DNA from: Thermoproteota archaeon
GTDB lineage: Archaea; Korarchaeota; Korarchaeia; Korarchaeales; Korarchaeaceae
DNA length: 48,115 nt
Assembly: GCA_027491395.1 (NCBI GenBank)
Contig: JAOZFI010000050.1
Span: forward strand, 1-48,115
Direction: 5' to 3'
In this document: in pieces, positions 6,584-41,422 of the stretch
Layout: the number at the start of each line of letters is the position of its first letter
Position numbering within the stretch: the first letter of the stretch is position 1
Position numbers and translations under genes: made by a program
Notes under the pieces: model-generated
The model's database searches: none
Told to the model about the DNA's origin: nothing
Seen by the model: the letters and a program-made list of their open reading frames with translations, nothing else

Positions 6584-7363
6584 ATGGAACTGGGATTGGC
6601 CGATAAGCTGGCTGTTGTAACTGGAGGAAGCTCTGGCCTAGGTAAGGCTGCCGCTGTATCTCTACTCAAGGAGGGCGCAAGAGTCCTGATTGCTTCAAGA
6701 ACGGAGGAGAGGTTAAGGAGAGCTATGGGCGATCTATCTAGCCTAGGAGAGGTGCAGGCCTTGAGGACCGACCTGACAAAACCGGATGACATAGAGTCCC
6801 TCTTCAGGAGATCCGAGGAGATGGGTGGAGCCGACATACTTGTGATCAGCTATGGAGGGCCAAGGATAGCCAGATTCCCCGAACTCAACGACAGGGATTG
6901 GTATCACGCCTACGAACTCTTGGTGATGAGTGTCGTGAGGCTCGCCCGGCTGTTCGGCTTCAGGATGAAGGAGAGGGGATGGGGCAGGATAGTTCTGGTC
7001 ACCTCAGTGGCCATCAAGGAGGTGAACATGAACATACCCTTATCCACCAGCGTGAGGCTCTCCTTAGCTGGTCTCGTCAAAGTCCTATCGAGGGAACTAG
7101 CCCCCGAAGTGAACGTTAACGCTGTAATGCCCGGTCATTTCATGACGGAGAGGCAGCAGGATCTCCTCAGATCGAGAGCAGTTGAGAGAGGCCTGTCACT
7201 CGAGGAAATGGAGGTTGAAGCGGCAAAGGAGATACCTCTGGCCAGATTTGGCAGGCCTGAGGAGCTGGGCGATGTGATCTCCTTCCTGGCGAGTGAGAGG
7301 GCGAGCTACATAACGGGCTCCCTTATACCCGTGGATGGGGGTCTGCTGTCCTGCACCCTTTAA
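6584..7363 (+). CDS. SDR family oxidoreductase, atypical (BKR-like, Tyr and Lys replaced)
   Basis: A 259-residue Rossmann protein of the short-chain dehydrogenase family. The nucleotide motif TGGSSGLG (13-20), the conserved NVNAVMPG and the C-terminal ITGSLIPVDGG are present. The catalytic YxxxK is not: the aligned segment is STSVR, so Tyr becomes Ser and Lys becomes Arg. This is the known pattern of a 3-oxoacyl-ACP-reductase-like subgroup without the standard tetrad, so loss is a subfamily feature rather than a mutation. The substrate is unknown and the activity may not be a classical reduction. It is followed by the M42 peptidase gene with a gap of about ten nt, suggesting co-transcription. 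Confidence 0.85.
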   Translation: MELGLADKLAVVTGGSSGLGKAAAVSLLKEGARVLIASRTEERLRRAMGDLSSLGEVQALRTDLTKPDDIESLFRRSEEMGGADILVISYGGPRIARFPELNDRDWYHAYELLVMSVVRLARLFGFRMKERGWGRIVLVTSVAIKEVNMNIPLSTSVRLSLAGLVKVLSRELAPEVNVNAVMPGHFMTERQQDLLRSRAVERGLSLEEMEVEAAKEIPLARFGRPEELGDVISFLASERASYITGSLIPVDGGLLSCTL

Positions 7364-7373
7364 GGTGATGAGG

Positions 7374-8408
7374 ATGTCGGAGTGGATTGATCTTTTGGAG
7401 AAACTGTCGGTTGCAGCCGGTCCCCCCGGCTTTGAGGACGAGGTTAGGGATCTCCTGATAGATGAACTCAGGGAAAGCGTCGATCAGCTGTTCACCGATC
7501 CTTTCGGGAATCTATACGCAGTGAAGAGGGGTAAGAGCGAGAGGAAGCTGATGATTGCTGCCCACATGGATGAGGTGGCTCTCATGGTCAGGTACTTGGA
7601 GCCCAATGGGTTTCTCAGGGTCACTAACTTGGGGGGACTCAATCCGGCTCAGCTCCTATCTCAGAGAGTACTCGTGCATGGAAGGAAGAAGCTCAGGGGA
7701 GTTATAGGAACACTACCCGTTCACATGGGGAAAGAGGAGCCCCCAAAGATCGAGGATCTCTACGTTGATGTGGGGGGCACCAACAGGGAGCAGCTAGAAG
7801 GACTGGGTGTCAGACCTGGAACTCCCGTGACCTTCGACGTCCCCTTCATCCACCAAGAGGACACGGGTGTGTTGATAGGGAAGGCACTGGATGACAGGCT
7901 GGGGTGCCTAGTACTGGCCGAGTCCCTAAAGGGGGTGAATGACCCGGACATGACGGTCTACGGGGTGTTCACCTCTCAAGAGGAGAGGGGGATGAGGGGA
8001 GCGACGGTCGCGGTGAACAGGGTCCAGCCGGATCTGGCATTCGTGCTCGAGGGGACTATAGCGTCCGATGTACCGGGAGTCCCAGCCCACAAGTACGTCA
8101 CCGAGCTGGGTAAGGGACCCGCCTTGAGGGTGATGGATAGGACCGTGATCGTCCAGAGGTGGCTCCTCGAGGAGATGGTATCTAGGGCTGAGGAGCTCGG
8201 CATACCCTACCAGCTGCAGCTCTCTCCGACGAGCGGGACTGACGCAGCTGCAATAAGCGTTGGGGGAAAGGGGACACCCGTCGGGATAGTATCGGTCCCA
8301 GCTAGGTATATCCACACACCCTCCAGTCTCGCTAGGGTCGAGGACGTAGAAAACACGGTAAAGCTGGTGACCGATCTGGCGGGATCACCACCGGAACCTA
8401 GATATTAA
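7374..8408 (+). CDS. M42 family metallo-aminopeptidase
   Basis: A cytosolic dinuclear-metal aminopeptidase of the TET/glutamyl aminopeptidase family, which assembles large tetrahedral particles that trim peptides. The metal and catalytic residues are all visible: AAHMDEV (His and Asp), KALDDRLGC (bridging Asp), SQEERGMRGA (catalytic and metal Glu), then Asp in ASDVPG and His in YIHTPSS. I chose the ATG at 7374 because AGGTGATG sits a few nt upstream; an ATG at 7368 is possible, while earlier starts run into the SDR gene. Length is 344 residues, normal for the family. Its 3' end overlaps the convergent gene at 8398 by 11 nt. Confidence 0.93.
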   Translation: MSEWIDLLEKLSVAAGPPGFEDEVRDLLIDELRESVDQLFTDPFGNLYAVKRGKSERKLMIAAHMDEVALMVRYLEPNGFLRVTNLGGLNPAQLLSQRVLVHGRKKLRGVIGTLPVHMGKEEPPKIEDLYVDVGGTNREQLEGLGVRPGTPVTFDVPFIHQEDTGVLIGKALDDRLGCLVLAESLKGVNDPDMTVYGVFTSQEERGMRGATVAVNRVQPDLAFVLEGTIASDVPGVPAHKYVTELGKGPALRVMDRTVIVQRWLLEEMVSRAEELGIPYQLQLSPTSGTDAAAISVGGKGTPVGIVSVPARYIHTPSSLARVEDVENTVKLVTDLAGSPPEPRY

Positions 8409-9600
8409 GAAGGATTTTTTCTCGAAATTTCATCCCCCTTTTCTTCATCTCATCCAAGAAGGGCCTTGGATCGATGACCTCCTCTGGATAATAAACACCG
8501 GGCAAGCTCAGAATCCCCAGCCCGATCCACTGAGCCGTCAAGGAGGAGGGACTTCCCACGAGCAGGGCCTGAGCGCTCACGTTCCATCTTTCACTCCAGC
8601 TTATCAGGGCCTCCACCAAGATCTCCGCCTTAACTCCCCTTCTCCAACCCCTAGCAATAACCAACATCACATCATGGTCGTTTGGCTCGAATCCCTTTCC
8701 CCTTAAAGAGCCGAGAATCAACTCCCTGATTATATCTCTCGGGACCACGCTCACATTCCCCAACCTTATTGGTCGGTCAGACGTCAATCCTAGGTCGTGG
8801 AGCAGCTTGTACTTCAGAAGGAGGTCTCTGGGGAAGGAGAGCTTGTAGTCGACGAACCTCAATCCCTTACTCTTGAAGGTCTCGCCAAGGGAATAAACCT
8901 CAGGATGCTCGACATAGTATAGCTCCTGCTCTCCAACTGGTGGGGGGAAGGACATAACCTCCCTGCCAGAGAAGGGGGCAACCAGCTCGATACTGCCGTC
9001 CCTCCACACTTCTACAGGTTGATCCATTTCATCGAATATCGTGTCTAGGGAGTATGGAACGGGGAGCGGCACGCCCATCGAATCGTAATCGTTTAGATCT
9101 ACCCACCCCTCCCTCAAGAGAAGCGTATCAACCCTGTCGAGTTCCTTAACGGCCTTAGCAGCCATCACGTTTATGAGCCCCGGGCTCCCGCCCATCTCCA
9201 ATAGAGCAATTAGACCTTTGCTCTTGAACTGATGGTCCATTTCCCTCTGGGCCAATAGTGTCTCTACGTCATCTCCCAAGTCCAGATAGTGGACTTCCGC
9301 CTCTAAAGCAGCTCTCATGACGACCGGTATGGTTGTATAGAGGGCGGCATCGATGACCACGTCTGTCTTGAATTCTTTGAGAGAGGATATCACCTCATCG
9401 AGCTTCGTGGCATCCAGCTTGACATGCTTCACCTCTTTGTACTTGGTTAGAGTGCTCGCCTCATCTGCGACCCGGCGCGCCTTATCACCATCTATATCTG
9501 CAACTAGTACGGACTCGACATCCGGGCTCATTGAATCATCAGCTAGGTCAAGCACTGCCGCTCTCCCCATAATACCGGCTCCTATAACCGCAATTCTCAT
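8398..9600 (-). CDS. Saccharopine dehydrogenase-like NAD(P)-binding oxidoreductase
   Basis: A 400-residue protein with a Rossmann nucleotide site at the extreme N-terminus (VIGAGIMGRAA, then Asp in VLVADID) and the saccharopine dehydrogenase-like core (DAALYTTIPVVMRAALEAEVHYLDLGD; EMGGSPGLINVMA). Archaeal members of this broad family have various or unknown substrates, so lysine metabolism should not be assumed. The ATG at 9600 is the first in-frame start and fits the Rossmann motif exactly. It is monocistronic, convergent with the M42 peptidase and overlapping it by 11 nt. Confidence 0.85.
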   Translation of the reverse strand: MRIAVIGAGIMGRAAVLDLADDSMSPDVESVLVADIDGDKARRVADEASTLTKYKEVKHVKLDATKLDEVISSLKEFKTDVVIDAALYTTIPVVMRAALEAEVHYLDLGDDVETLLAQREMDHQFKSKGLIALLEMGGSPGLINVMAAKAVKELDRVDTLLLREGWVDLNDYDSMGVPLPVPYSLDTIFDEMDQPVEVWRDGSIELVAPFSGREVMSFPPPVGEQELYYVEHPEVYSLGETFKSKGLRFVDYKLSFPRDLLLKYKLLHDLGLTSDRPIRLGNVSVVPRDIIRELILGSLRGKGFEPNDHDVMLVIARGWRRGVKAEILVEALISWSERWNVSAQALLVGSPSSLTAQWIGLGILSLPGVYYPEEVIDPRPFLDEMKKRGMKFREKILLNI

Positions 9601-22889: not shown

Positions 22890-23873
22890 TTAGTCCCCGA
22901 ATATGAGCCTCCTGACTCGGCGGCCCACCTCCTCTATGGGATGCTCCTCTACCCTCCTCATCAGCTCGTTGAATCTCTCCCATCCGTTCCTGTAGACCTT
23001 CACCCACTCCCTCGCGAACTCGCCGCTGACCACTCTCTCAGCGTACCTCCTCATCCTATCCTTGACCCCGTCGTCCAGCACCTTGGGTCCGACGGTCAGT
23101 CCACCATATCTAGCGGTCACCGACACCCTCTCTAGCATCCCCTTTATGCCGTACCTCCATATCAGGTCCATTATCAGCTTAGCCTCGTTTAACGCCTCGA
23201 AGTACGCCACCTCCGGCTGGTAGCCCATGTCCACCAAGGTCTCCCAGCCCTTCAGAATTAGCTCCATTAACCCGCCGACCAGCACATTCTGCTCACCTAT
23301 CAGGTCCGTCTCCGTTTCCTCCGCGAAGGTCGTCTCTATAACCCCTGCCCTCGTGGCGCCGATTCCCTTGGCTATGGCTAAAGCATACTCTAGGGCCATT
23401 CCCGAGCTGTCTTGGTGAACAGCCACTAGCGCGGGTACCCCCCTACCCCTGAGGAACTCCTCCCTCACGGCCGCACCCGGAGCCTTCGGGGCTACCATCA
23501 CGACATCCACGCTGCTCTTGGGCTTTATCAGTCCGTAGTGCACGGTGAAGCCGTGTGCGAAGTCGACCACCGCTCCATCCCCGAGGTTGGGCTCCACCTC
23601 GTTCATCCACACGTCGGGTTGCACCATGTCAGGTAGGAGGTATAGTATGACATCCGCCTTGGAGACGGCTTCTCCCACCTCATACACCTCGAAACCCTCT
23701 CCTTCAGCCCTTTCCCAAGATTTACCTCTCCTCACTCCCACAATCACGTCCACACCGCTGTCTCTAAGGTTCAGGGCTTGCGCCCTGCCCTGTATTCCGT
23801 AGCCGACGACCGCCACCCTCTTCCCCATTAGGGGGTCTAGGCTGACGTCCTCGTCCGTGTACATCTTGGCCAT
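22890..23873 (-). CDS. ilvC: Ketol-acid reductoisomerase
   Basis: Converts acetolactate or acetohydroxybutyrate to the dihydroxy acid in valine, leucine and isoleucine synthesis, using NAD(P)H and Mg2+. The N-terminal Rossmann motif [19 protein letters not shown] (about 22-40) is followed by a cofactor loop [18 protein letters not shown] and MVAPKAPG, the first metal-binding Asp/Glu ([10 protein letters not shown]) and the second ([10 protein letters not shown]) are present. At 327 residues it is a class I enzyme. I chose the ATG at 23873 because GAGGTGAT lies just upstream, overlapping the end of ilvN; a GTG at 23882 is the longer option. Third gene of the ilvB-ilvN-ilvC operon. Confidence 0.95.
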
Positions 23874-23883
23874 TCCAATCACC

Positions 23884-24162
23884 TCACGGCAGCACCACTT
23901 CGGTGAGGGGATCCTCGAACTCCACCCTCCTCGGCCTCGGCTCCACTGACAGCACTTCCGGCAGAACAGACATCTTCTTCATGACCCACTCCACTTCCTC
24001 CGCCCTACCTTCGAGCTCCATACAGGCCACAGCATGTCCATCCTCGAACTTGGCCTCCATGCCCCTGTAGACCACCTTTCCCCTCCTAGCTATATTCAGG
24101 ACACGAGTCAACTGATCCAGACCTCCGAACACCTTCACACACAACTTGGTCTCGACCCACAT
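23884..24162 (-). CDS. ilvN: Acetolactate synthase regulatory subunit-like ACT protein
   Basis: A 92-residue protein with an ACT-like beta-alpha-beta pattern ([31 protein letters not shown], then [21 protein letters not shown]). It sits between ilvB and ilvC, so it is most simply the valine-sensing small subunit of acetolactate synthase. It is shorter than classical IlvN and sequence similarity is modest, so context carries much of the call. The start ATG at 24162 has a perfect GGAGGTGAT that overlaps the ilvB stop; the upstream in-frame extension within ilvB is rejected. Confidence 0.75.
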
Positions 24163-24167
24163 ACAGA

Positions 24168-25892
24168 TCACCTCCACTCGAGGCTCACATCCATTCCCGG
24201 GGGCAGTATCGCCTGGGTGAGCCACTTCCCAGGCTGAACCCACGGGAGGACCACATCCTTCTCATTATCCAAAAGAACATCCAATATGAGGGGCTCGTTA
24301 TTCCTGACAGCCCATTCCACCTGCTTCTCGAGATCATCGTAGCTCTCAGGCCTCCTGTAATCGATGTTGTAGGCGTCAGCCACCTTGGCGAAGTCCGGAT
24401 TCTCCTTGAACTCTGTGGCGATGATTCTCCTATCGTAAAGGTACATCTGCCACTGCTTTACCAGCATGAGAGCTCTGTTGTCGAAGATCACCTCGATAAA
24501 GGGGAGATTGTAGTCCCTGACCAGTGAGAGGTTGTTTAAGGTCATCTGGAATGAGCCGTCGCCGTCAATGCAGACCACCTGCCTGTCCCTAGCAGCGAGC
24601 TTCGCTCCCAGCGCGGCAGGGATGCCGAAGCCCATGGTCCCCAGTCCAGCCGATGTTACGAACGTGCCAGGTACGAGGACATCCCAGTGGATCTCCGCCC
24701 ACATCTGGTGTCCTCCTACTCCCGTGACCGTTATGGTATCGTTGGGAACGGATCTTCTGACTGTCTTCAGGACCCTCCACGGGACTAGCCCGTTAAACTC
24801 CTTCTCCCACTCCTTTATCGACCTCTCGAATTCCTTCCTTACGTGCTGGAGCCATGAAACGTACTCCTTTCTCCCCTCAGACTCTACGGATTTAATGACG
24901 TCGAGGAGCATCCTAAGTGCGATTCTAGCATCTCCCCTTATAGCTACGGCTGTGGGGAGATTCTTTCCAAGCTCGCTATCGTCCAGATCTATGTGTATGA
25001 TCTTCTTCTCCCTCATCTCGTCAAACCTACCCACGGTCCTGTCCGAGAACCTGGTTCCCACGGCGAGTACCACGTCTGCGTTGGCGAGAGCAGCGTCAGC
25101 CTCAGCTCTACCATGCATTCCAGCCGGACCCATCACTAGGGGGTGATTGAACGGCACTGAGTTCTTCCCTGGGAGCGTCGTGACCACCGGGGCGAGCATG
25201 TACTCAGCCAATCTCAGCACCTCCTCCCAGGCATTGGCCCAGTATACGCCGCCACCGACGAGTATCACTGGCCTCTCAGCCTTCTTGAGTAGCTCAGCTG
25301 CCTCCCTGACATGGTCCAAGCTTGGCTCGACGGGAGCGTATTTGCTGAAGTCAACAGGCAGGAGCTCCCCATTCCACTCCGCCTTCTTAGCCACCTGAAT
25401 ATCCCTCGGGAGGTCCACGAGGGTCGGACCAGGTCTTCCCATGCTGGCGACCTTGTAAGCGGTTGCGACGGCAGGTAGGGCCTCTTCTGGTTTCTTAACT
25501 TGGTACACGAACTTGGTTATGGGGGACACGACGCCAAACATGTCCGTTTCTTGGAATGCGTCTCTACCGAACACTTCAGTGGCTACTTGCCCGGTGAGGG
25601 CCATCACGGGGGAGGAATCCATGTAGGCGTTCGCTATCCCGGTCACCAGATTCGTGGCCCCGGGTCCGGATGTGGCCATCATGACTCCGGGCTTCCTCGC
25701 AATTCTCCCGTATGCGTCGGCTGCGTGGGCCGCTCCCTGCTCGTGCTTGAACATGACGACCTCTATTTCGTCCCTGTACGGGTAGAGAGCATCATAGAGA
25801 GGCATTATGGAGCCGCCAATCACACCCATGAGGGTGCTCACACCTAATTCCGGTAAAAGAGACGCGATCGCGTCAACAACGCGATCACTCAC
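24168..25892 (-). CDS. ilvB: Acetolactate synthase large (catalytic) subunit
   Basis: A thiamine diphosphate enzyme condensing pyruvate with pyruvate or 2-oxobutyrate, the first common step of branched-chain amino acid synthesis. The cofactor-activating Glu is Glu51 (FKHEQGAAHAADAYGR). The ThDP motif GDGSFQMTLNNLSL begins at about residue 438, and the FAD/central domain holds AVGTRFSDRTVGRFDEM. At 574 residues it is a normal IlvB. The start is the GTG at 25892 without a clear Shine-Dalgarno; codons 3-10 form two overlapping DNA palindromes. It is first gene of the ilvB-ilvN-ilvC operon, downstream of a PadR regulator. Confidence 0.95.
   Translation of the reverse strand: MSDRVVDAIASLLPELGVSTLMGVIGGSIMPLYDALYPYRDEIEVVMFKHEQGAAHAADAYGRIARKPGVMMATSGPGATNLVTGIANAYMDSSPVMALTGQVATEVFGRDAFQETDMFGVVSPITKFVYQVKKPEEALPAVATAYKVASMGRPGPTLVDLPRDIQVAKKAEWNGELLPVDFSKYAPVEPSLDHVREAAELLKKAERPVILVGGGVYWANAWEEVLRLAEYMLAPVVTTLPGKNSVPFNHPLVMGPAGMHGRAEADAALANADVVLAVGTRFSDRTVGRFDEMREKKIIHIDLDDSELGKNLPTAVAIRGDARIALRMLLDVIKSVESEGRKEYVSWLQHVRKEFERSIKEWEKEFNGLVPWRVLKTVRRSVPNDTITVTGVGGHQMWAEIHWDVLVPGTFVTSAGLGTMGFGIPAALGAKLAARDRQVVCIDGDGSFQMTLNNLSLVRDYNLPFIEVIFDNRALMLVKQWQMYLYDRRIIATEFKENPDFAKVADAYNIDYRRPESYDDLEKQVEWAVRNNEPLILDVLLDNEKDVVLPWVQPGKWLTQAILPPGMDVSLEWR
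25861..25886. promoter_or_regulatory. Overlapping palindromes at the 5' end of ilvB
   Basis: GATCGCGT (25866-25873) and ACGCGATC (25879-25886) are perfect 8-nt arms with a 5-nt loop. GACGCGATCGCGTC (25861-25874) is itself a 14-nt perfect palindrome. Both lie within the first ten ilvB codons. They may form an mRNA hairpin near the start or bind a regulator; they could also be a by-product of Asp-Ala-Ile-Ala codons. Confidence 0.35.
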
Positions 25893-32614: not shown

Positions 32615-34567
32615 ATGAGGAAGATGTTCTGGTTACCAATCCTGTCCATAGCTGCGCTGACGTTGGCGTTCGCATTACTACCAGTGCTGGCTAACCCCGG
32701 GGAGGTCGGTTTCGGAGATGCTCAGAGCATCGAGGCATCAGCGCAGGAAGTTCTGGCTAGGGTGAGCCCGGAAACTAAGGCCTGTCTGAACTGCCACGCT
32801 GACCCCAATACTGTTAAGATGCAGGTTCCCTATTACGACTGGTTGAGGAGTAAGCACGCCTGGCATACTCCAGATGAACTGGAAGCCTATTACAGGAACA
32901 TCTTCGGAGAGGACGCCAATCTGGCCAGCAAGTTCAAGGGATACCCGTACGTCGTGGGATGTTATGAATGCCACGGAATGTTCGCCGATTCCGACAGGCC
33001 CGATGTCGTTGACCACAATGGCTACAAGATCGTGGTGGATGTGACCCCGAAGGACTGCCAGCAGTGTCACTATAAGGAGACCAAGGAGATGAGCTGGACT
33101 AAGCACGCGTTCGCCGCACTTAACGCTAACCTCAAGCCTTGGTACACCCTCGTACTCCAGAAGACCTATGGAGATGTCGCCAAGGCTGAATACGACAAGC
33201 TGTTCAAGGATGTGGTCGAGTGGCCGTTTTACAAGAAGTACGCGAAGGACTTCTATAACGGAGACGAGAAGGCCGTGAACGCGAGCAAGTACTACTTCTA
33301 CGGCGACAAGTTCAAGTTCGTATCGACCCTCTATCCATCTCACGGGATGCTCACTCACGAGGTGCCCAACCTGACCGCCAACTACTTGGGCATCGACTAC
33401 CACTTCATCATGGAGCACCCCAAGTACAACAACTCCTACGTTTACTTGGCCTGTATGGAGTGTCACGGCTCCGCAGTGCTACCGGCCAAGCCCAACGCCA
33501 TAGTTGGTGTTGACGCGCCCTATGCTAAGGTCGATGGCACTCCCGACATGGTGCTCCTCGGATGGCCCAACAACGGCGCTGGGAGGGTAAACCCCGACGG
33601 GAGCCTTGGCAGCTGCGCCACATGCCACACGAGACATACCTTCAGCATGGAGGAGGCTAGGAAGCCCCACACTTGTGGTCAGTGCCATCTCGGATATGAC
33701 CACCCGCAGATAGAGATCTACGAGGAAAGCAAGCACGGTAACATATACGATTCCGAGGGAGAATCTTGGAACTACACCAACCTGCCGTGGGTGCCCGGAG
33801 TGGACTTCAGGGCCCCGACCTGCGCTACCTGCCACATGAGCCACCTCGCCGACAAGAATGGCAAGATTATAGTGCCGGGAACTCACGACCTCGGAGCTAG
33901 GCTGACTTGGGAGATACAGGCCAAGTGGAGCTTCGGTCAGACGTACTATCCTGACCCACTGAACAACAAGTTCAATAAGAAGAGGCCAGACTGGAAGAAC
34001 CCGCTCACCATGGGCAACGCCGCCCTATCCTCGACTGACAACCCGAGGGGCAGGATGATGTCAGTGTGCAAGAGCTGCCACTCCAGCGAATGGGTGTACT
34101 CGTACTTCACTTGGTACGACAGCGTAAACATGGACTACAACATAACGTGGAAGTACGCAATAGACATGCTCAAGAAGGCCTACGAGCAGGGAATACAGGA
34201 GGATAGGAAGGGCCAGACCATAATGGATAGGAAGGCTTTGGGAGATGACACGGACGAGTACATGGAGATCATGTACTATTACATATGGCACCACGACGGC
34301 AGGAGGTGGAGGATGGGAGCCTCCATGATGGGTCCGGACTACACGCACTGGCTCGGTATAGTCGATACGGTCATGGACAAGCTAGGGAGGATGTCCGCCT
34401 ATTACGAGACCCAGCTCAAGATAAAGCAGCTGGAGAGCAAGGTTGAGAAGGTATCAGGAGCTGGCGTTGGCGCCGGAATGAACATGTTCACCTTCATAGC
34501 GACGGTGCTCTCTCTGGTGGCCATCGTGCTGGTCCTCATCGACATCCTAGTAAGGAGGAAGAAGTAA
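32615..34567 (+). CDS. Membrane-anchored octaheme c-type cytochrome, hydroxylamine oxidoreductase-like
   Basis: A 650-residue exported cytochrome with a signal peptide (about 1-26) and one C-terminal membrane helix (about 622-645, then VRRKK). Eight CxxCH sites start at Cys57, 116, 148, 280, 334, 354, 403 and 485, the octaheme count and uneven spacing of the HAO family. The C-terminal HHDGRRWRMGASMMGPDYTHW is also a typical HAO-family block. Members oxidise hydroxylamine or hydrazine, or reduce nitrite to ammonia; direction here is unknown, and whether the active-site crosslinking Tyr is present needs structural alignment. An upstream A/T-rich region (32465-32560) holds the likely promoter and GGGAGG precedes the ATG. 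The Ccm operon follows directly. Confidence 0.88.
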   Translation: MRKMFWLPILSIAALTLAFALLPVLANPGEVGFGDAQSIEASAQEVLARVSPETKACLNCHADPNTVKMQVPYYDWLRSKHAWHTPDELEAYYRNIFGEDANLASKFKGYPYVVGCYECHGMFADSDRPDVVDHNGYKIVVDVTPKDCQQCHYKETKEMSWTKHAFAALNANLKPWYTLVLQKTYGDVAKAEYDKLFKDVVEWPFYKKYAKDFYNGDEKAVNASKYYFYGDKFKFVSTLYPSHGMLTHEVPNLTANYLGIDYHFIMEHPKYNNSYVYLACMECHGSAVLPAKPNAIVGVDAPYAKVDGTPDMVLLGWPNNGAGRVNPDGSLGSCATCHTRHTFSMEEARKPHTCGQCHLGYDHPQIEIYEESKHGNIYDSEGESWNYTNLPWVPGVDFRAPTCATCHMSHLADKNGKIIVPGTHDLGARLTWEIQAKWSFGQTYYPDPLNNKFNKKRPDWKNPLTMGNAALSSTDNPRGRMMSVCKSCHSSEWVYSYFTWYDSVNMDYNITWKYAIDMLKKAYEQGIQEDRKGQTIMDRKALGDDTDEYMEIMYYYIWHHDGRRWRMGASMMGPDYTHWLGIVDTVMDKLGRMSAYYETQLKIKQLESKVEKVSGAGVGAGMNMFTFIATVLSLVAIVLVLIDILVRRKK

Positions 34568-34608: not shown

Positions 34609-34629
34609 CGAGGCGTGAGGGATCCCCCA

Positions 34630-35670
34630 ATGAGAAAGCTAGTAGCGGCGCTGGCTGTCACGTCACTAGCGGATGCTGCAACCCTGTGGATCTCCCAGGT
34701 GTTAGGCCCGTTTCCTTCCGTGGTTCCCTTAGGAAATCCGACCGCTTACAGGAACCTGTATGTGCATGTCCCCATCTCAGTGTCTACTTATCTACTCTTC
34801 ACCTTGGGATTCTTCCTAGCGCTCTCCTACCTCCTCAAGGGAAAAGGATGGATGGAGGAGATGGCCCATTCCTTCATATTAGCGGGCCTCGTGACGGGCT
34901 TCTCCACCCTAGTCACCGGCATGATATGGGCATCGGAATCATGGGGCTCAGCTTGGAACTGGGATCCCAGAGAGACAGGGGTCCTCTTCATGTTCTTAGC
35001 CTTCTTAGTTTACTTGGCTGTCAGGTCTAGCATAAAGGACCCTGATGTGAGGCCCAAGGTATCTATGGCCTTCGCCGTTGCCGCCTACGCCACAATCCCA
35101 CTGAGCTTCTTGGTCCCCTACTTGATGCCCAGCCTGCATCCCACCATGCCGGAGACCAGCATGTTCATCAGAGGAGGGCTCACTCCCCTGATCTTCGGGG
35201 GCAGAATAATCTTGGTCTCACTGGAAGGAGCACTCTTGGCCCTTCTTATTAGATCCGGAGGTGTGAGAGGCGCTAAGCTTGCGGTCATCCCGGTGGTTCT
35301 GGTGGCCGTGCTGTTGCTAGCGATGCAGCTGCCCCCCAACTTGGCAGGGGGCGAGACTCTCAAGGTCCAGGTGATATCTGGCACGATGGAGAACGGGACC
35401 CTACATCTGAAGGTGAGGTCTTCTCAAGGAACTTACGACCTCCTCTACAAAGGGAAACCACCGATAAATCCGCTTTTCGTCACATTCGGTGGGGGGAGGA
35501 GGCTAACTCTGGAGAAGCACTGGCTGCTGGTGGAAGGGAGGGTCGAGGACGGTACCATAGTGGCGAGCAGCCTGAAGCTGATACCCTATTGGGGGAATCC
35601 CGTCAACGCGATGATATACGCGCTAACCCTTTTCACCCTCGCCTACCTAGCAGGGAGGGAGAGGAAATGA
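34630..35670 (+). CDS. ccmC: CcmC-like heme-handling protein with an added CcmE-like OB domain
   Basis: Delivers heme to the chaperone CcmE in System I cytochrome c maturation. Residues 1-235 hold about six helices and the tryptophan-rich WWD motif WGSAWNWDPRETG (105-117); His46 (YVHVP) and His near 164 are candidate heme ligands. The next 95 residues are an outer-face domain with the CcmE order (LKVQVISGTMENGTL, YDLLYKGKPPINPLF, LLVEGRVEDGTIVASSLKL) but no heme-binding His or Cys, then a final helix. This CcmC-CcmE-like fusion is unusual. I chose the ATG at 34630 over the GTG at 34615 because of TATA spacing. Its stop overlaps the ccmE start (ATGA). Confidence 0.83.
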   Translation: MRKLVAALAVTSLADAATLWISQVLGPFPSVVPLGNPTAYRNLYVHVPISVSTYLLFTLGFFLALSYLLKGKGWMEEMAHSFILAGLVTGFSTLVTGMIWASESWGSAWNWDPRETGVLFMFLAFLVYLAVRSSIKDPDVRPKVSMAFAVAAYATIPLSFLVPYLMPSLHPTMPETSMFIRGGLTPLIFGGRIILVSLEGALLALLIRSGGVRGAKLAVIPVVLVAVLLLAMQLPPNLAGGETLKVQVISGTMENGTLHLKVRSSQGTYDLLYKGKPPINPLFVTFGGGRRLTLEKHWLLVEGRVEDGTIVASSLKLIPYWGNPVNAMIYALTLFTLAYLAGRERK

Positions 35671-36080
35671 AGGGAGTGTTGCTGGCAGCGTCCATAGCCT
35701 TGGTGGTCCTCTTGGTGGGATACATGGCCATAACCTCCAGCTCATATGAGCAGGTATCTCAGCTCGCCAAGTATAGGAAGCCCACGATGGTCACGGTCAG
35801 GGCCCTTGTGGCTGACATCAAGACCCTGCCCGAGAAGGATCTGATACTCTTCTTGCTGGAGGACGAGAACGGGAGCAAGATCTACGCCTTTTATGGCCTC
35901 ACTAGGTTTATCAGCCAGTACGGGGCCCCACCCTCTCACTCGACGGTGGAACAGGAGGTCATCATTAGGGGGATGTTCTATCCCGAGAGGATGGGAGATG
36001 TTCTGGGGAGGATGGAGATAAAGGAGATCCTGCAGGGGTGCCACAAGGCCTACGAGGCCCCTCCAGCCACGGGTGGTTGA
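35667..36080 (+). CDS. ccmE: Heme chaperone CcmE, Cys (CxxxY) type
   Basis: A 137-residue membrane-anchored OB-fold protein (helix about 3-22) that carries heme covalently from CcmC to CcmF. The OB strands run from PTMVTVRALVADIKTL to VIIRGMFYPER. The heme-binding residue is Cys125 in GCHKAYEAP, with Tyr129 four residues on; most bacteria use His in HxxxY, whereas CxxxY is the variant known from some archaea and sulfate reducers. The ATG at 35667 overlaps the ccmC stop; the longer ORF start inside ccmC is rejected. The ccmA start is immediately adjacent. Confidence 0.85.
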   Translation: MKGVLLAASIALVVLLVGYMAITSSSYEQVSQLAKYRKPTMVTVRALVADIKTLPEKDLILFLLEDENGSKIYAFYGLTRFISQYGAPPSHSTVEQEVIIRGMFYPERMGDVLGRMEIKEILQGCHKAYEAPPATGG

Positions 36081-36710
36081 GTGATACTCGAGTTCAGGGA
36101 TGTGTGGAAGAGCTTCGGGAGCGGGTACGTGATAAGGGGGATCACCCTCTCCTTAGGAAGGGGGGAGCTGGTGGCGATAGTAGGCCCCAATGGTTCCGGG
36201 AAGACCACCATCCTGAGGCTAGCCTCGGGCCTCATAGCTCCCTCGAGGGGAGAGGTACTAGTGGAAGGGAAGGATGCCAGAAGCCCCGCTGCCAAGGCCC
36301 TCCTAGGTTATGTCCCCCACTATCCACCCATCTACGGAGACCTGACCGTTCGGGAGAATCTGATATATTACGCGGGCCTCTACGGATATGCTGACCTGTC
36401 CAACGTAGAGCCCATCTTGAAGGAGCTCGGTCTGGACGCCTTCTTTGACAGGAGAGTCGTCGAGTTGAGTTACGGGTGGAGGAAGAGGGTAGATATTGTG
36501 AGGGCCCTCCTCCACGACCCACCCCTACTCCTTATTGACGAACCGTTCTCCGGACTGGATGACGCAGGGAGGAGGTGGCTGATCGAGTTCCTCACCCGGT
36601 TGGTGTCAGCTGGCAGGACAGTGGTCATGACATCTCCAAGGGCGGATGTGGAGCTGGAAGCGAAGGTGTACGAGATCAGGGAGGGAAGATTGAGTGCTGC
36701 TACAGGTTAA
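36081..36710 (+). CDS. ccmA: Heme exporter ATP-binding protein CcmA
   Basis: A 209-residue ABC ATPase. Walker A is GPNGSGKT (35-42), the signature is LSYGWRKRVDIVRAL (about 134-148) and Walker B is LLLIDEPFSGLDD. With CcmB and CcmC it drives release of heme-loaded CcmE rather than simple heme export. The start is the GTG at 36081, directly after the ccmE stop; ccmB begins 17 nt before its end. Specific assignment comes from the operon. Confidence 0.87.
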   Translation: MILEFRDVWKSFGSGYVIRGITLSLGRGELVAIVGPNGSGKTTILRLASGLIAPSRGEVLVEGKDARSPAAKALLGYVPHYPPIYGDLTVRENLIYYAGLYGYADLSNVEPILKELGLDAFFDRRVVELSYGWRKRVDIVRALLHDPPLLLIDEPFSGLDDAGRRWLIEFLTRLVSAGRTVVMTSPRADVELEAKVYEIREGRLSAATG

Positions 36711-37338
36711 GAGGATCCTGTGGAAAGACCTGAAGCTCGAGGCTAGGAACCTGCCAGAGCTGGGCGGAGCGGCCATATTCTCGGTGGCATCGTCCAGCTT
36801 GCTGGGCTTCTCACTAAGCAGGTTGTCGGTTGAGGATCCCCTTCCCTTTGCAGGTACCGGCCTCATGCTCATCGCCCTCTTCCTATCGGTCTTCACCTCG
36901 GTCATGACCGTTGTGAGGGAGGAGGATCTTGGCACGCTGGATGGAGTCAGGATGTCGCCCGTCGAACCGGTAACCTTCTTCCTAGCGAAACTCCTTCTTA
37001 CTTTCATCCTGTTGGAGACCCTGATCACGCTGTCCTTCCTGACCATCGTGGGTCTGTCTGGCTGGACCGAGGGAGCGATCTACCTCTATTCCCTAGTAGC
37101 CTCATCCGGGGTCTATCTGGCGTCAATATCGGCCCTATCCTCAGCTATTTCCGTCTACCTGAGAGCGAGGGGAGTTCTCTTACCTACCATGATCCTCGTG
37201 CTGAGCCTCCCGATAATTCAGGAGACCCTCTCATTCCTGACCTCTGGGGATTACTCTCGAACCGTGATACTAGCTACTTCGGGCCTCTTGTTCTCACTGA
37301 TCGCCTCTTGGTTGGCTGGTTACATTCTGGAGGTGTGA
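36694..37338 (+). CDS. ccmB: Heme exporter membrane protein CcmB
   Basis: A 214-residue permease with six helices. LLQVKRILWKDLKLEARN at the start and VREEDLGTLDGVRMSPVEPVTFFLAKLL in the middle (compare the RDEAGGTLDQLLLSP-type motif of bacterial CcmB) identify it. It forms the CcmA2B2 complex acting on CcmC/CcmE. The start is the GTG at 36694, overlapping ccmA by 17 nt; the thioredoxin-CcdA gene follows after three nt. Confidence 0.87.
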   Translation: MLLQVKRILWKDLKLEARNLPELGGAAIFSVASSSLLGFSLSRLSVEDPLPFAGTGLMLIALFLSVFTSVMTVVREEDLGTLDGVRMSPVEPVTFFLAKLLLTFILLETLITLSFLTIVGLSGWTEGAIYLYSLVASSGVYLASISALSSAISVYLRARGVLLPTMILVLSLPIIQETLSFLTSGDYSRTVILATSGLLFSLIASWLAGYILEV

Positions 37339-37341
37339 GTA

Positions 37342-38409
37342 ATGAGGGTAAGCTATCAGAACATCTTGGCCATTGTCATCGTGCTGACGTCCGTGGGTCT
37401 CGGCCTCCTAGTCTCCTTCAGCAGCAAGGGTGTTGCCATACAGATCTATGCAGGGGAGCTGGACAGGCAGCTCAAGGAGGGAGTAGTGGCCGTCATGTTC
37501 TGGAGCGAGACCTGCTCCTCCTGCGAGTTGATGAAGCCCTACTGGATGCAGGTGGAGGCCTCTCCGCCCGAGGACGTCCGCGTGATGGATGTGCCCCTCG
37601 TTCCCGGGGAGACTGACCGGCTCTTCATGGAGTACGGGGTCACGGAGACCCCCACCTTCTTAGTCCTCAGGGAGGGCGCCGTGGTGGCCAAGATCGTGGG
37701 CCCGGTTCAGTCCGACGACCCGGCCCTATACTTCAGGAGATGGATAGAATCAGCTGCTAAGATGGCGAGTACCTCCGAAGAGCAGGTCACGGGATGGGAA
37801 CCGGCCACACTTGCCCTTCTCCCATTCTTGGGTGCGCTGGTCGCCCTATCTCCCTGCTCGGCGCCTATAGTCGCTGCCTACGCCACCATGAGGAGGGTGA
37901 GGGGGAAGGGAGATTACGCTGTCTGTCTGGGATCCTCGTTCTTCGGTACAATGGTTTTGGGTTCTCTCATGGTCGTTGCCGCTTCCTTCGTGGCGGGCCT
38001 CATCAAGGGATTGACCTTCGCCCTAGCCGTGGCCGCCATACTTTTCGGGTCGCTCACCATCTTCACTGCCTCTGAATCCTGTCCTTTACCGGGCCAGAGG
38101 GTGAGAGGGTTACTATCATCCGGCCTACCAGCGGCGTGCTTCAGCTTCGGTCTGGTATCCCTTCAGTGCAGCCTGCCCTTGCTCGCTGGCTACATAGCCC
38201 TCATAAGCGCGACCGGTGATGTGCTCGGCGGGGTAGCGGGCGTGGCTCTGCTCGCCCTAGGCATGGCAGCCGCGCTTGTCGCCTCCCTCTACTTGGCGAA
38301 GAGGGCGACCGGAGCCTTCTCCAAGGCCATGAAGAACCCCGCTTGGCTGGAGAGGATAAGCGGTGGTATTCTCGTAGCCTTGGGCATCTACCTCCTGCTT
38401 GTGGGGTGA
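37342..38409 (+). CDS. Thioredoxin-CcdA fusion protein (thiol transport for apocytochrome c)
   Basis: Residues 1-28 are an anchor, 30-145 an extracytoplasmic thioredoxin domain with active site C58-SS-C61 (WSETCSSCELMKPYW) and cis-Pro in TETPTFLVL, and 155-355 a CcdA-like unit of about six helices with the two reactive Cys, C172 (LSPCSAP) and C276 (VSLQCSLPLLAGY). Electrons from cytosolic thioredoxin would pass through the CcdA part to the fused outer thioredoxin and reduce CxxCH cysteines before heme attachment. Fusion places CcdA and CcmG-like roles in one chain. It lies within the ccm operon, three nt after ccmB. Confidence 0.85.
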   Translation: MRVSYQNILAIVIVLTSVGLGLLVSFSSKGVAIQIYAGELDRQLKEGVVAVMFWSETCSSCELMKPYWMQVEASPPEDVRVMDVPLVPGETDRLFMEYGVTETPTFLVLREGAVVAKIVGPVQSDDPALYFRRWIESAAKMASTSEEQVTGWEPATLALLPFLGALVALSPCSAPIVAAYATMRRVRGKGDYAVCLGSSFFGTMVLGSLMVVAASFVAGLIKGLTFALAVAAILFGSLTIFTASESCPLPGQRVRGLLSSGLPAACFSFGLVSLQCSLPLLAGYIALISATGDVLGGVAGVALLALGMAAALVASLYLAKRATGAFSKAMKNPAWLERISGGILVALGIYLLLVG

Positions 38410-38413
38410 ACTC

Positions 38414-41400
38414 ATGCATTACACGGGATTGATAGCTCTTATGGGCGGCGCGATCCTCCTCGCCGACCTCGCTTACTCCTCGATCAAGAGGAGGATCATC
38501 AAGCTCGGACTCGTGGCCTACGCGATCCTCCTCGCCGACTGGCTCCTCTACGTGTGGGCCTTTGTGACTCAGGACTACACGCTCAAGCCCGTCTACGAGA
38601 CATCTTCCATAGGGCTCCCCCTCATGTTCAAGATAGCCTCGAGCTGGTCCAGCGGGGGCGGGAGCCTCTTCCTCCTGACCACGGTCCTGACCACCGTGGC
38701 ACTCATCCACAGGAGGTACCACAGGGATACAATGCTGAACGCCGGATACGGCGCACTGATAATCTCATCCCTAGCCCTGGCGTTCCTGAACGGTGCATTC
38801 GAGTCCTTCCACGGTGATGTGGCGACCGGCATGGGGCTGAATCCCCTGCTGAAGAGCCCTTGGATATATCCTCATCCCCTCTCGACCTTCACAGCCTACG
38901 CCTTGATCGCTGCCTCAGCCGTCTCCCTGTACAGCGGGCACGAGAAGGCAAGTGATCTACTGGCTAGGACCGGATGGCTCCTACTGACCTTGGGTATAGC
39001 TATAGGGGGCTACTGGAGCTACGTTACCTTCGGATGGGGTGGCTACTGGGCTTGGGATCCGGTGGAAACGGCTGAGTTGACTCCTTGGCTTGCCCTAACT
39101 GCGGCATTCCACGTCAAGTCCCTAGACAGGAAGCTCTCCTACGCTACTCAGATGGCCGCAGCGGGTAGCGTCTTCTTGGCTATACTCGTCACCAGGGTGG
39201 GCATCTCTCCCCTCCACAGCTTCGCCTCCCCCCAGTCCATGACCAGCGCTTTAACGCTTCTATTAACCTTCCTCTTCATAGCCGAAGGCATAAGAGGATC
39301 TCGAGGGGCTGGTATCGGGATAGGGAAAGTGACCTCCAGCCCCTACAGGACAGGACTCGTCCTCTCTTACTTCTCTCTGTTTATGATGTTCTTGGTGCTC
39401 TTCTCGGTGCTTGCTGGCGGGTCCATAGGCAGCGTCTTGGGTATGAGGGTCGATGTTCCACAGATGGACTCCGGTATAGAATTCTTTCACCAGTTACTTT
39501 TCCCCTTCGCCCTCCTGCTCATGGTCTCCCTCCCGATGTGTACCATAGGGGCGAGACTCGGATGGAGGGAGATACTGGGTGTCATTGAGGGCCTCTCAAT
39601 AGTGTCAGCTATCCTGCTCTACCTGGCCTTCAAGAGGGACATCATATGGTCACCGGCTAGCTCGCTCACCACGAACCTCATCATATCCATAATGCTTCCC
39701 TTCACCGTAGCTGGCCTCTTCTCAGGGCTGGCGGCCCTCTACATCTACGCTAGGGACAGGTTGAGTACCATGTCCTCGGTGTCGCTTCTGCATGCCGCCA
39801 TGGCCCTCACGATGCTCGGCGTACTCATGAGCGGACCCTTCGCCTACAACAGATCCTACTTCAGGGATATCACACTCCCCTACTATCGGGAGCTGGATGT
39901 GGACGGATTGGGGATGAAGCTTAAGGGATACGAGTACAGCCTCTACGGCGGTAAAGTGGACCTCTATACCCCCTACGTTGGGAGATCGGACATATACAGG
40001 AGGGCGAGCCTTACCATGCTCTCCTTGGCGATCAACTTCGGCGATGCCCTACGGGAGATGAAGGAGGGAGAGAAGCGACTGGAGGAGACCGGCATCCTAG
40101 GGATATATAGGGACCTCAAGGGGGGTGTCAGGATGAGTGGGAGCTACAGGGCCAACGCCAGCGCCGTCTTGACTGAGGTGAGCAATGCTTCCAAGGAATC
40201 CAAGGATTTGGGCGAGGTGTCCGTCTCCGTCTCGGATCCCGTGATTGCGTCCTTCTTGGGCGCCAGTGCTAATGAGACCACCCTCAGGATGATAGTAGTG
40301 GGAAACGTGACCCTCGGAGGGAACCTGACCTCGATTAGGGCCTCCCCAGCCGTGATGATTAACCTCACCTTCCAAAGACCCCTAATCCTGAACGCTCCCG
40401 AGGGGACGGTGGAGATAGGGAGGGCATCCATCGTATTCTTCGACATGCTGAAGCAGGGTCACTCCCTACCCAAGAACCTCAACGGCACCATAGTGGCCCC
40501 AAACTCGACTCTCGTGATAGAGAAGGGCGTTTATCACGGAGAGAGGGATGTGGAGATACCGGCAACCATTAGAGGGAGGGACGTGGTCCTCTACGTTGCG
40601 TTCACCCAAGGAACAATCTCCTCCGATGTCCTGAAGATACTCGAAGATCACGGTCTGTCCAGACTGCTTACCAACGAGACATTCGCCTCTAAGCTGTTGA
40701 GTGACCTGCTTCCAGGGAACTGTAAGGAGCTCGTCCACGAGCGTCAGGGGGCGGCCATCAACTGCCTAGGATACCTCCCAATACCGAAGGAGCTGCCGGA
40801 GGGTGCGAAGCTCTCCCTCACATTGGAGGCCGGAGACTCGGAGGAGCTTCTGGAGATAAGGTTCGATGCCAACGGCGAGGCTCAGGGCATCCACGGCCTA
40901 GTCGCCCACGTGCTGACCCTACCTAGCGGTCTGGGCGACCTTTACATGGTGTTCCATCCTCCCGTCGTCAAGGACAGGAAGTGGAGCATAGGCTTCCACG
41001 AGCTAATGGTTTACTACCTCCACGAATCGTTCAGGGGGCTTAACGAGGAGCAGAAGCTTGCCTTAGCTTCTCTCTTCGCCTCGGCTTACTTGGGTCAGTC
41101 CGTCCAAGAGGAGATGATGCTGCCCTACACGTTGGACCTCTACGATCTGGCCCACCGCTTCGATCCCTCTAACTCGACCCTCATGACCTCGGGCGCGTTC
41201 CTTCAGGTGAAGGTGATACCGTACGTCCAACTGCTGTGGTGGGGGATAATCCTAATGGCCCTTTCAGAGCTCTACCTGATCATAGAGGGGATGAGGAGAT
41301 CCAGAACGACCTCAGCCCCCGAGGAACAGCAGACCAACTTGAGCCGGGAGCCAGAGGGAGATGGGAATGGTGAGCCCGGGGAGGGACCTCCCGGCCCTGT

Positions 41401-41422
41401 AAAGGACCCAGAGAGTCAGTAG
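38414..41422 (+). CDS. ccmF: CcmF-like cytochrome c heme lyase, greatly enlarged
   Basis: The synthase joining heme from CcmE to CxxCH. Residues 1-470 hold the membrane core: SSWSSGGGSLFLL in place of the usual WGGHEGS block, GMGLNPLLKSPWIYPHP (139-155) with a candidate heme His, and the WWD motif GWGGYWAWDPVETAELTPW (207-225). After the HAAMALTMLGVLMSGP segment, about 450 residues of outer-face beta domains with many N-x-S/T sites follow, then one helix (near 945) and a Pro/Glu/Gly-rich tail. Bacterial CcmF is about 650 residues. The ATG at 38414 has GGGGTGA upstream. The tail's DNA overlaps the convergent protease gene by 111 nt. Confidence 0.85.
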   Translation: MHYTGLIALMGGAILLADLAYSSIKRRIIKLGLVAYAILLADWLLYVWAFVTQDYTLKPVYETSSIGLPLMFKIASSWSSGGGSLFLLTTVLTTVALIHRRYHRDTMLNAGYGALIISSLALAFLNGAFESFHGDVATGMGLNPLLKSPWIYPHPLSTFTAYALIAASAVSLYSGHEKASDLLARTGWLLLTLGIAIGGYWSYVTFGWGGYWAWDPVETAELTPWLALTAAFHVKSLDRKLSYATQMAAAGSVFLAILVTRVGISPLHSFASPQSMTSALTLLLTFLFIAEGIRGSRGAGIGIGKVTSSPYRTGLVLSYFSLFMMFLVLFSVLAGGSIGSVLGMRVDVPQMDSGIEFFHQLLFPFALLLMVSLPMCTIGARLGWREILGVIEGLSIVSAILLYLAFKRDIIWSPASSLTTNLIISIMLPFTVAGLFSGLAALYIYARDRLSTMSSVSLLHAAMALTMLGVLMSGPFAYNRSYFRDITLPYYRELDVDGLGMKLKGYEYSLYGGKVDLYTPYVGRSDIYRRASLTMLSLAINFGDALREMKEGEKRLEETGILGIYRDLKGGVRMSGSYRANASAVLTEVSNASKESKDLGEVSVSVSDPVIASFLGASANETTLRMIVVGNVTLGGNLTSIRASPAVMINLTFQRPLILNAPEGTVEIGRASIVFFDMLKQGHSLPKNLNGTIVAPNSTLVIEKGVYHGERDVEIPATIRGRDVVLYVAFTQGTISSDVLKILEDHGLSRLLTNETFASKLLSDLLPGNCKELVHERQGAAINCLGYLPIPKELPEGAKLSLTLEAGDSEELLEIRFDANGEAQGIHGLVAHVLTLPSGLGDLYMVFHPPVVKDRKWSIGFHELMVYYLHESFRGLNEEQKLALASLFASAYLGQSVQEEMMLPYTLDLYDLAHRFDPSNSTLMTSGAFLQVKVIPYVQLLWWGIILMALSELYLIIEGMRRSRTTSAPEEQQTNLSREPEGDGNGEPGEGPPGPVKDPESQ

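Follow-up and report, generated by a model that had tools for sequence, protein, structure and literature searches.

A gene of a vent archaeon, in a 48,115-nucleotide stretch of DNA (the window), encodes a cytochrome with eight heme sites and its own membrane tether, and the question it raises is whether this protein reduces or oxidizes nitrogen compounds, acts on other inorganic compounds, or only conducts electrons. The original prediction described an HAO-type octaheme working outside the cell on hydroxylamine, nitrite or other inorganic substrates, with an anchor that may replace a separate quinol-linked membrane cytochrome. The gene is an ORF of 650 aa with an ATG start on the + strand, and its boundaries hold. 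Its features are as follows.

32615..34567, + strand: octaheme cytochrome c of the HAO family, 650 aa (ORF, Pfam and PDB matches)
32621..32701, + strand: N-terminal hydrophobic segment, a putative signal peptide or signal anchor, hydrophobic at residues 3-29 (hydropathy)
32783..32797, + strand: heme motif 1, CLNCH
32960..32974, + strand: heme motif 2, CYECH
33056..33070, + strand: heme motif 3, CQQCH
33452..33466, + strand: heme motif 4, CMECH, by order the presumed HAO catalytic heme (motif, alignment with 4qo5 and HAO)
33614..33628, + strand: heme motif 5, CATCH
33674..33688, + strand: heme motif 6, CGQCH
33698..33703, + strand: Asp362-His363, the counterpart of Asp267-His268 in Nitrosomonas HAO (profile alignment)
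33821..33835, + strand: heme motif 7, CATCH
34067..34081, + strand: heme motif 8, CKSCH
34286..34351, + strand: C-terminal HAO-family block WHHDGRRWRMGASMMGPDYTHW, with His578 at 34346-34348 (alignments of relatives)
34484..34552, + strand: predicted C-terminal transmembrane anchor, ~45 residues past the GPD motif (hydropathy)

The eight CxxCH sites originally described are present and account for all 16 of the 16 cysteines. In 2000 shuffles of the protein, the mean number of CxxCH motifs was 0.024 and the maximum was 2, and the first Cys of each of the eight motif columns is Cys in 35/35 aligned relatives. The protein matches Pfam Multi-haem_cyto (PF13447; E 5.9e-23, 81.9 bits, above the cut-off of 21.9). 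A search of solved structures with the single sequence gave 4qo5 as the best match (2.4e-61), followed by HAO-type enzymes of anammox bacteria and Nitrosomonas. With a profile built from 19 relatives (alignment A1), the values were 1.7e-106 for 4qo5 and 1e-28 for Nitrosomonas HAO, and all eight heme motifs align with those of 4qo5, which we take to be IhOCC (Igni_0955), the octaheme cytochrome of Ignicoccus hospitalis. IhOCC was reportedly described in FEBS J in 2016 as reducing nitrite and hydroxylamine and as having no Tyr cross-link. The block WHHDGRRWRMGASMMGPDYTHW is kept in relatives and lines up with the C-terminal end of 4qo5. Judged by these sequence matches, the octaheme is a member of the HAO family. 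A pentaheme NrfA, with five hemes and a CxxCK catalytic heme, is ruled out by the eight CxxCH motifs that use every cysteine. AlphaFold models reached a mean pLDDT of 50.1 for the full length (19 rows) and 47.9 for residues 48-602 (22 rows), too low for the models to be used.

A contig scan for relatives gave 22 loci, five of the same genus at 84-91% and 17 at 39-48%, the latter mostly from Pyrodictiaceae, Acidilobaceae and other Desulfurococcales-type MAGs. Of 394 genomes searched with a profile, 26 matched, two of them (G169 and G250) only in the coiled-coil/anchor part, and 16 different octahemes were taken from the loci of this search together with L008. Close relatives are recorded as Crenarchaeota/Thermoproteota, in agreement with an archaeal protein. 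A 32-row tree that takes the IhOCC-like proteins of L065 and L066 as its root and leaves out L008, L078 and L029 separates three groups: this genus, clade 2 (12 proteins of three families, f6, f12 and f61) and clade 3 (the Desulfurococcales-type set). The branch order among these three anchored clades is untrustworthy, as it carries a long-branch warning. Another tree with L008 as outgroup is dominated by a branch of length 9.6; it serves for grouping only and is superseded by the 32-row tree.

Hydropathy bears out the predicted C-terminal anchor, a strongly hydrophobic stretch at residues ~617-649 that is followed by RRKK. A C-terminal hydrophobic helix is present in 5/5 rows of this genus, 12/12 of clade 2 and 10/14 of clade 3; among the four clade-3 rows without it, L021 and L029 are cut off by the end of the contig, and L025 and L028 have an early stop of the ORF. 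The stretch from the GPD motif to the helix is 45-48 residues long in this genus versus 113-215 in ten Desulfurococcales-type rows, whose long stalks look like coiled coil. By these counts and lengths, the anchor is a property of the whole clade with a stalk of variable length. As a general rule, the idea that the anchor substitutes for a quinol-linked membrane partner fails: relatives with the anchor have a tetraheme, an FeS protein and NrfD alongside as well, and the anchor is found in nearly all members. At the window locus itself, neither a tetraheme nor NrfD lies beside the octaheme, and the window's genome yielded no tetraheme of this kind. We note that in L090 (G133:C1:446000-462000), on a contig of 1.5 Mb, the octaheme frame at 6767-9158 is split by stops into three ORFs, which is either a pseudogene or a sequence error.

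The residues around the predicted catalytic heme bear on the direction of the reaction. Asp267-His268 are pocket residues of Nitrosomonas HAO; counted along the printed profile alignment, they correspond to Asp362-His363, and this pair is present in 31/31 rows of the anchored clade. Via relative L008, a His is aligned with Tyr467 of Nitrosomonas HAO, and the same column is His578 in the window protein. The cross-linking Tyr, for which an alignment with HAO was originally proposed, is absent, and His578 lies in its place. Among the 30 rows that have this column, 25 carry His, two Gln, two Phe and one Tyr. According to a 2025 study (PMC12758564), reductive HAO carry His and oxidative HAO carry Tyr at this key site. 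Oxidation of hydroxylamine, one side of the chemistry originally suggested, is unlikely because the position is His and His there marks reductive forms in that account; the window protein, having no Tyr at the key site, falls on the reductive side by this measure. Tyr576 was considered as an alternative cross-linking residue and discarded, as its column is Trp in 9/12 and Phe in 1/12 rows of clade 2 and Phe in 5/13 rows of clade 3 that have it. Only one row of the anchored clade, L026:3701-6286 from a Pyrodictiaceae MAG, has Tyr at this position (DYAYW), as reported for oxidative HAO, and this could be an independent switch. Outside the heme motifs, eight His (81, 164, 341, 363, 374, 424, 559 and 560) do not vary in any A1 row that covers them (18 or 19 rows); in the wider set, position 81 is Met instead of His in 2/12 clade-2 rows. 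Eight such His would fit seven distal ligands with a single pocket His, and they are candidate ligands.

Directly 3' of the octaheme gene lies a set of genes for cytochrome c maturation, in the order ccmC, ccmE-like, ccmA, ccmB, thioredoxin/CcdA-like fusion and ccmF.

34615..35670, + strand: ccmC-like heme export/handling protein (PF01578, TIGR01191)
35589..36080, + strand: ccmE-like heme chaperone with a probable start close to 35667 and the C-x-x-x-Y motif CHKAY (position, size and motif only)
36081..36710, + strand: ccmA-like ATPase (PF00005, TIGR01189)
36694..37338, + strand: ccmB-like permease (PF03379)
37342..38409, + strand: thioredoxin domain fused to a membrane region, putatively CcdA-like (PF00085; the L024 homologue matches DsbD_TM weakly)
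38399..41422, + strand: ccmF-like heme lyase, 1007 aa (PF01578, TIGR00353)

These genes represent an archaeal variant of System I maturation, with CcmA, B, C and F present; their Pfam matches are above the cut-offs, and their NCBIfam matches are under the stricter cut-offs of that collection. The ccmE-like ORF matched no family model in Pfam or NCBIfam. The same octaheme-ccm order is found in G001 and G006 (loci L011 and L013), and in G002 the thioredoxin and ccmF genes lie on a different contig. At least two genes of the set lie near the octaheme in 8/13 Desulfurococcales-type loci compared (L019, L020, L021, L022, L024, L025, L026 and L031). Within the genus, the octaheme occurs in 7/16 genomes and CcmF in 7/7 of these. 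CcmF occurs in one of the nine genomes without an octaheme (G003), three of the nine being less than 80% complete. The ccm cluster of G003 (L051, L042; G003:C46) adjoins one gene for a c-type diheme protein and one for a cytochrome-b-like protein, another client for the same maturation genes. A scan of the whole window genome found 59 CxxCH codon patterns, against 52 in a reversed control, and a cluster of them in the octaheme gene only. A same-frame CxxCH pair on contig C55 was dismissed as a second multiheme, as it does not lie in one ORF and the single long ORF at that place runs on the opposite strand. The octaheme is the only multiheme protein found in this organism. Together with the co-occurrence of octaheme and CcmF, this suggests that the ccm set serves mainly this one protein, so that in this genus cytochrome c maturation looks like a natural system with a single client. 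In a 12-row CcmF tree, this genus groups with Desulfurococcales L022 (97/99) and not with G027 of its own phylum. This grouping, in a tree of few rows with long outer branches, hints that the octaheme-ccm cassette may have been transferred.

The neighborhoods of the relatives point to nitrogen chemistry. In clade 2, NapA is encoded in the examined stretch of 6/12 loci (L088, L089, L092, L093, L094 and L095); these NapA calls are best matches (2.7e-202, 4.8e-197) that lie under NCBI's strict cut-offs. In four of the six, NapG, NapH and a gene like the beta subunit of F420 hydrogenase lie between NapA and the octaheme. The last of these genes, for a coenzyme F420 hydrogenase beta-like protein, is found between NapH and the octaheme in L088 (5154-6281), L093, L094 and L095, a position that suggests F420H2 as the electron source for nitrate/nitrite reduction in these loci. 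Two of the 12 clade-2 loci (L087 and L099) have tetraheme, NrfC-like and NrfD-like genes 3' of the octaheme. L091, L096 and L097 are short contigs or lie at a contig edge, and in L098 neither NapA nor the tetraheme/NrfC/NrfD set was found in the examined stretch. A tetraheme, an FeS protein, NrfD and a monoheme-like gene adjoin the octaheme in 5/17 Desulfurococcales-type loci (L016, L020, L021, L024 and L027), and many of the other loci are short. Nap genes beside a HAO-like gene have been reported in two ammonifying bacteria without NrfA (PMC5276818). Related many-helix membrane proteins of 715-882 aa are encoded directly 3' of the octaheme in L018, L020, L022 and L024; a Pfam scan of those in L022 and L024 gave no match. 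We set this protein aside as a partner of the window octaheme, as no homologue was found in the window's genome, although an empty search shows nothing by itself.

As the octaheme lies beside NapA or the tetraheme/FeS/NrfD genes in relatives, reductive nitrogen chemistry is the best reading of the locus. This keeps as probable the nitrogen redox chemistry originally proposed, with hydroxylamine oxidation as an unlikely part of it. We believe, with a fair margin for error, that the protein is a tethered reductive octaheme of the HAO family that would reduce nitrite, or hydroxylamine/NO, to ammonium at heme 4. The family, the motifs, the ligand candidates, the loss of Tyr, the anchor, the ccm operon and the linkage to NapA or NrfCD-tetraheme genes in relatives are observed; the substrate, the direction, heme 4 as the active site and the electron donor are inferred. 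The octaheme would be secreted, then given its eight hemes by the Ccm set encoded downstream, and its C-terminal helix would tether it to the membrane on the outside. The heme chain would take up electrons from the quinol pool and pass them on to heme 4, which would be five-coordinate and would convert nitrite, or hydroxylamine/NO, to ammonium with the aid of the Asp-His pair. In the window's organism, nitrite would come from outside, as no nitrate reductase was found in the genome, or the enzyme may have a scavenging or detoxification role.

Several observations count against reduction of a nitrogen compound. Searches of the window's genome found no NarG/NapA among its four PF00384 matches (one formate-dehydrogenase-type, two thiosulfate/polysulfide-reductase-type and one unassigned Fdh-like), no hybrid cluster protein (HCP) and no siroheme nitrite/sulfite reductase (NIR_SIR). 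The genome has instead a NiFe hydrogenase, molybdenum enzymes of the formate dehydrogenase and Psr/Phs types, and NrfD proteins with the Psr/Phs type. The lack of an adjoining tetraheme or NrfD at the window gene also counts against it, as does the pocket of IhOCC, which was reportedly assayed and differs from that of the anchored clade. The probable orthologue Pyrde_0496 was present with nitrate and ferrihydrite alike (PMC8105010). As to the genome itself, the NiFe hydrogenase, with a DsrK/HdrD-like subunit, adjoins a formate dehydrogenase-N-type operon with FdhE in L046 (G000:C43:66000-85900). Two near-identical PhsA-type fragments (L047, G000:C32; L048, G000:C28) both stop at a contig edge and at one and the same residue, and a duplicated Psr/Phs operon is the probable reason why the assembly broke there. 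Elsewhere in the window, at 22890-25892, a ketol-acid reductoisomerase gene adjoins one for a TPP enzyme (branched-chain amino acid synthesis).

The redox enzymes of the genome, with no nitrate reductase found among them, suit the main rival, in which the octaheme reduces a sulfur compound (sulfite, thiosulfate or polysulfide) rather than a nitrogen compound. For the Auka vents, reduction of sulfur species has been suggested for HAO-family members outside the nitrogen-cycle clade (Speth 2022, PMC9213671). We nevertheless consider this rival unlikely, since the nearest sister clades adjoin NapA/NapG/NapH, and the Auka proposal concerns another part of the family and is termed speculative by its authors. 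The octaheme might instead be no enzyme at all, but a tethered conduit through which electrons reach minerals, partners or other cytochromes at the surface. Pyrde_0496 is expressed on ferrihydrite as on nitrate, and growth on iron raises another octaheme, Pyrde_0784, 60-fold (PMC8105010); the coiled-coil-like stalks of 113-215 residues in relatives could reach through an S-layer. A pure conduit, however, would not need the pocket pair, which is invariant, and this genus has a short stalk and no second multiheme as electron acceptor, so we regard a conduit as quite improbable. An enzyme oxidizing hydroxylamine or hydrazine like bacterial HAO/HDH is highly improbable: hydrazine dehydrogenase is the best named NCBIfam match and the Asp-His pair is that of HAO, but the match scores 55 bits, far under the equivalog cut-off of 900, His578 stands at the Tyr position, and the window genes that were scanned showed none for ammonia oxidation.

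Hydroxylamine and hydrazine oxidation presumably evolved from a stock of reductive octahemes. Testable proteins near that stock are provided by a clade of hyperthermophilic archaea that combines the HAO pocket, His for Tyr and linkage to nitrate reductase genes, and this clade could identify the missing nitrite-reduction step in vent archaea without NrfA. A wider picture may be drawn, although we find it rather doubtful as a whole: an archaeal, NrfA-free nitrate/nitrite ammonification built around an anchored octaheme with an intact HAO pocket and wired in three ways (to NapAGH and an F420-type subunit; to tetraheme/NrfC/NrfD; or alone with a private ccm operon), in which the octaheme-ccm cassette of this genus would derive from Desulfurococcales-like vent archaea and a single tethered octaheme would be the whole multiheme inventory of the cell. 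As relatives adjoin nitrate-reduction genes in other archaea, the enzyme is informative, not unprecedented. HAO-like archaeal octahemes, including a membrane-bound example and the probable orthologue, have already been described (PMC4429474, PMC8105010). A literature search, with subscription papers mostly outside its reach, found no published account of the NapA linkage of the anchored clade.

Among known systems, the complex of Pyrodictium delaneyi resembles some relatives' loci in gene content. Pyrde_0496 is described there (PMC8105010) as the octaheme of a putative membrane complex that also has a tetraheme, monohemes and two genes related to sulfur reductase; it was detected on nitrate and on ferrihydrite, and its abundance was not differential. 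The gene set is the same as that of L016, L020, L021, L024 and L027, and orthology is probable from this gene set only; the window gene is without that module, and its protein has a shorter stalk. The reductive HAO of Campylobacterota (epsilon-HAO) and of anammox bacteria (PMC12758564, PMC9213671) share the absence of the cross-linking Tyr and the reductive direction; here they were aligned only through the PDB matches 6h5l, 6t5e and 4n4j. NrfA with NrfH or NrfCD is alike in its working, as a multiheme reductase beside tetraheme, NrfC-like and NrfD-like proteins in relatives, but the window protein is an octaheme without a CxxCK heme and outside the NrfA family. Nitrosomonas europaea HAO (1fgj, 4fas) shares the family, the eight hemes and the Asp267-His268 pair, yet differs in that its Tyr467 is His578 here, the window protein is membrane-anchored, and the profile match is ~1e-28. 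IhOCC shares the order of the eight CxxCH motifs, the strong profile match, an archaeal host and membrane association. Unlike the window protein, IhOCC has Asp-Val in place of Asp-His (position 363 is Val), and Met, Lys and Leu-Phe in place of the clade's His81, His164 and His559-His560. The IhOCC-like proteins of L065 and L066 form a separate group with no C-terminal helix, and one genome, G252, carries both the IhOCC-like and the anchored kind. We therefore reject the view that the window protein is an orthologue of IhOCC, as the D-V, M, K and LF residues are absent from it and the HAO-type Asp-His and the candidate distal His are kept. As far as sequence can tell, the window octaheme is nearest to IhOCC among solved structures, yet it has a HAO-like set of candidate ligands that IhOCC is without.
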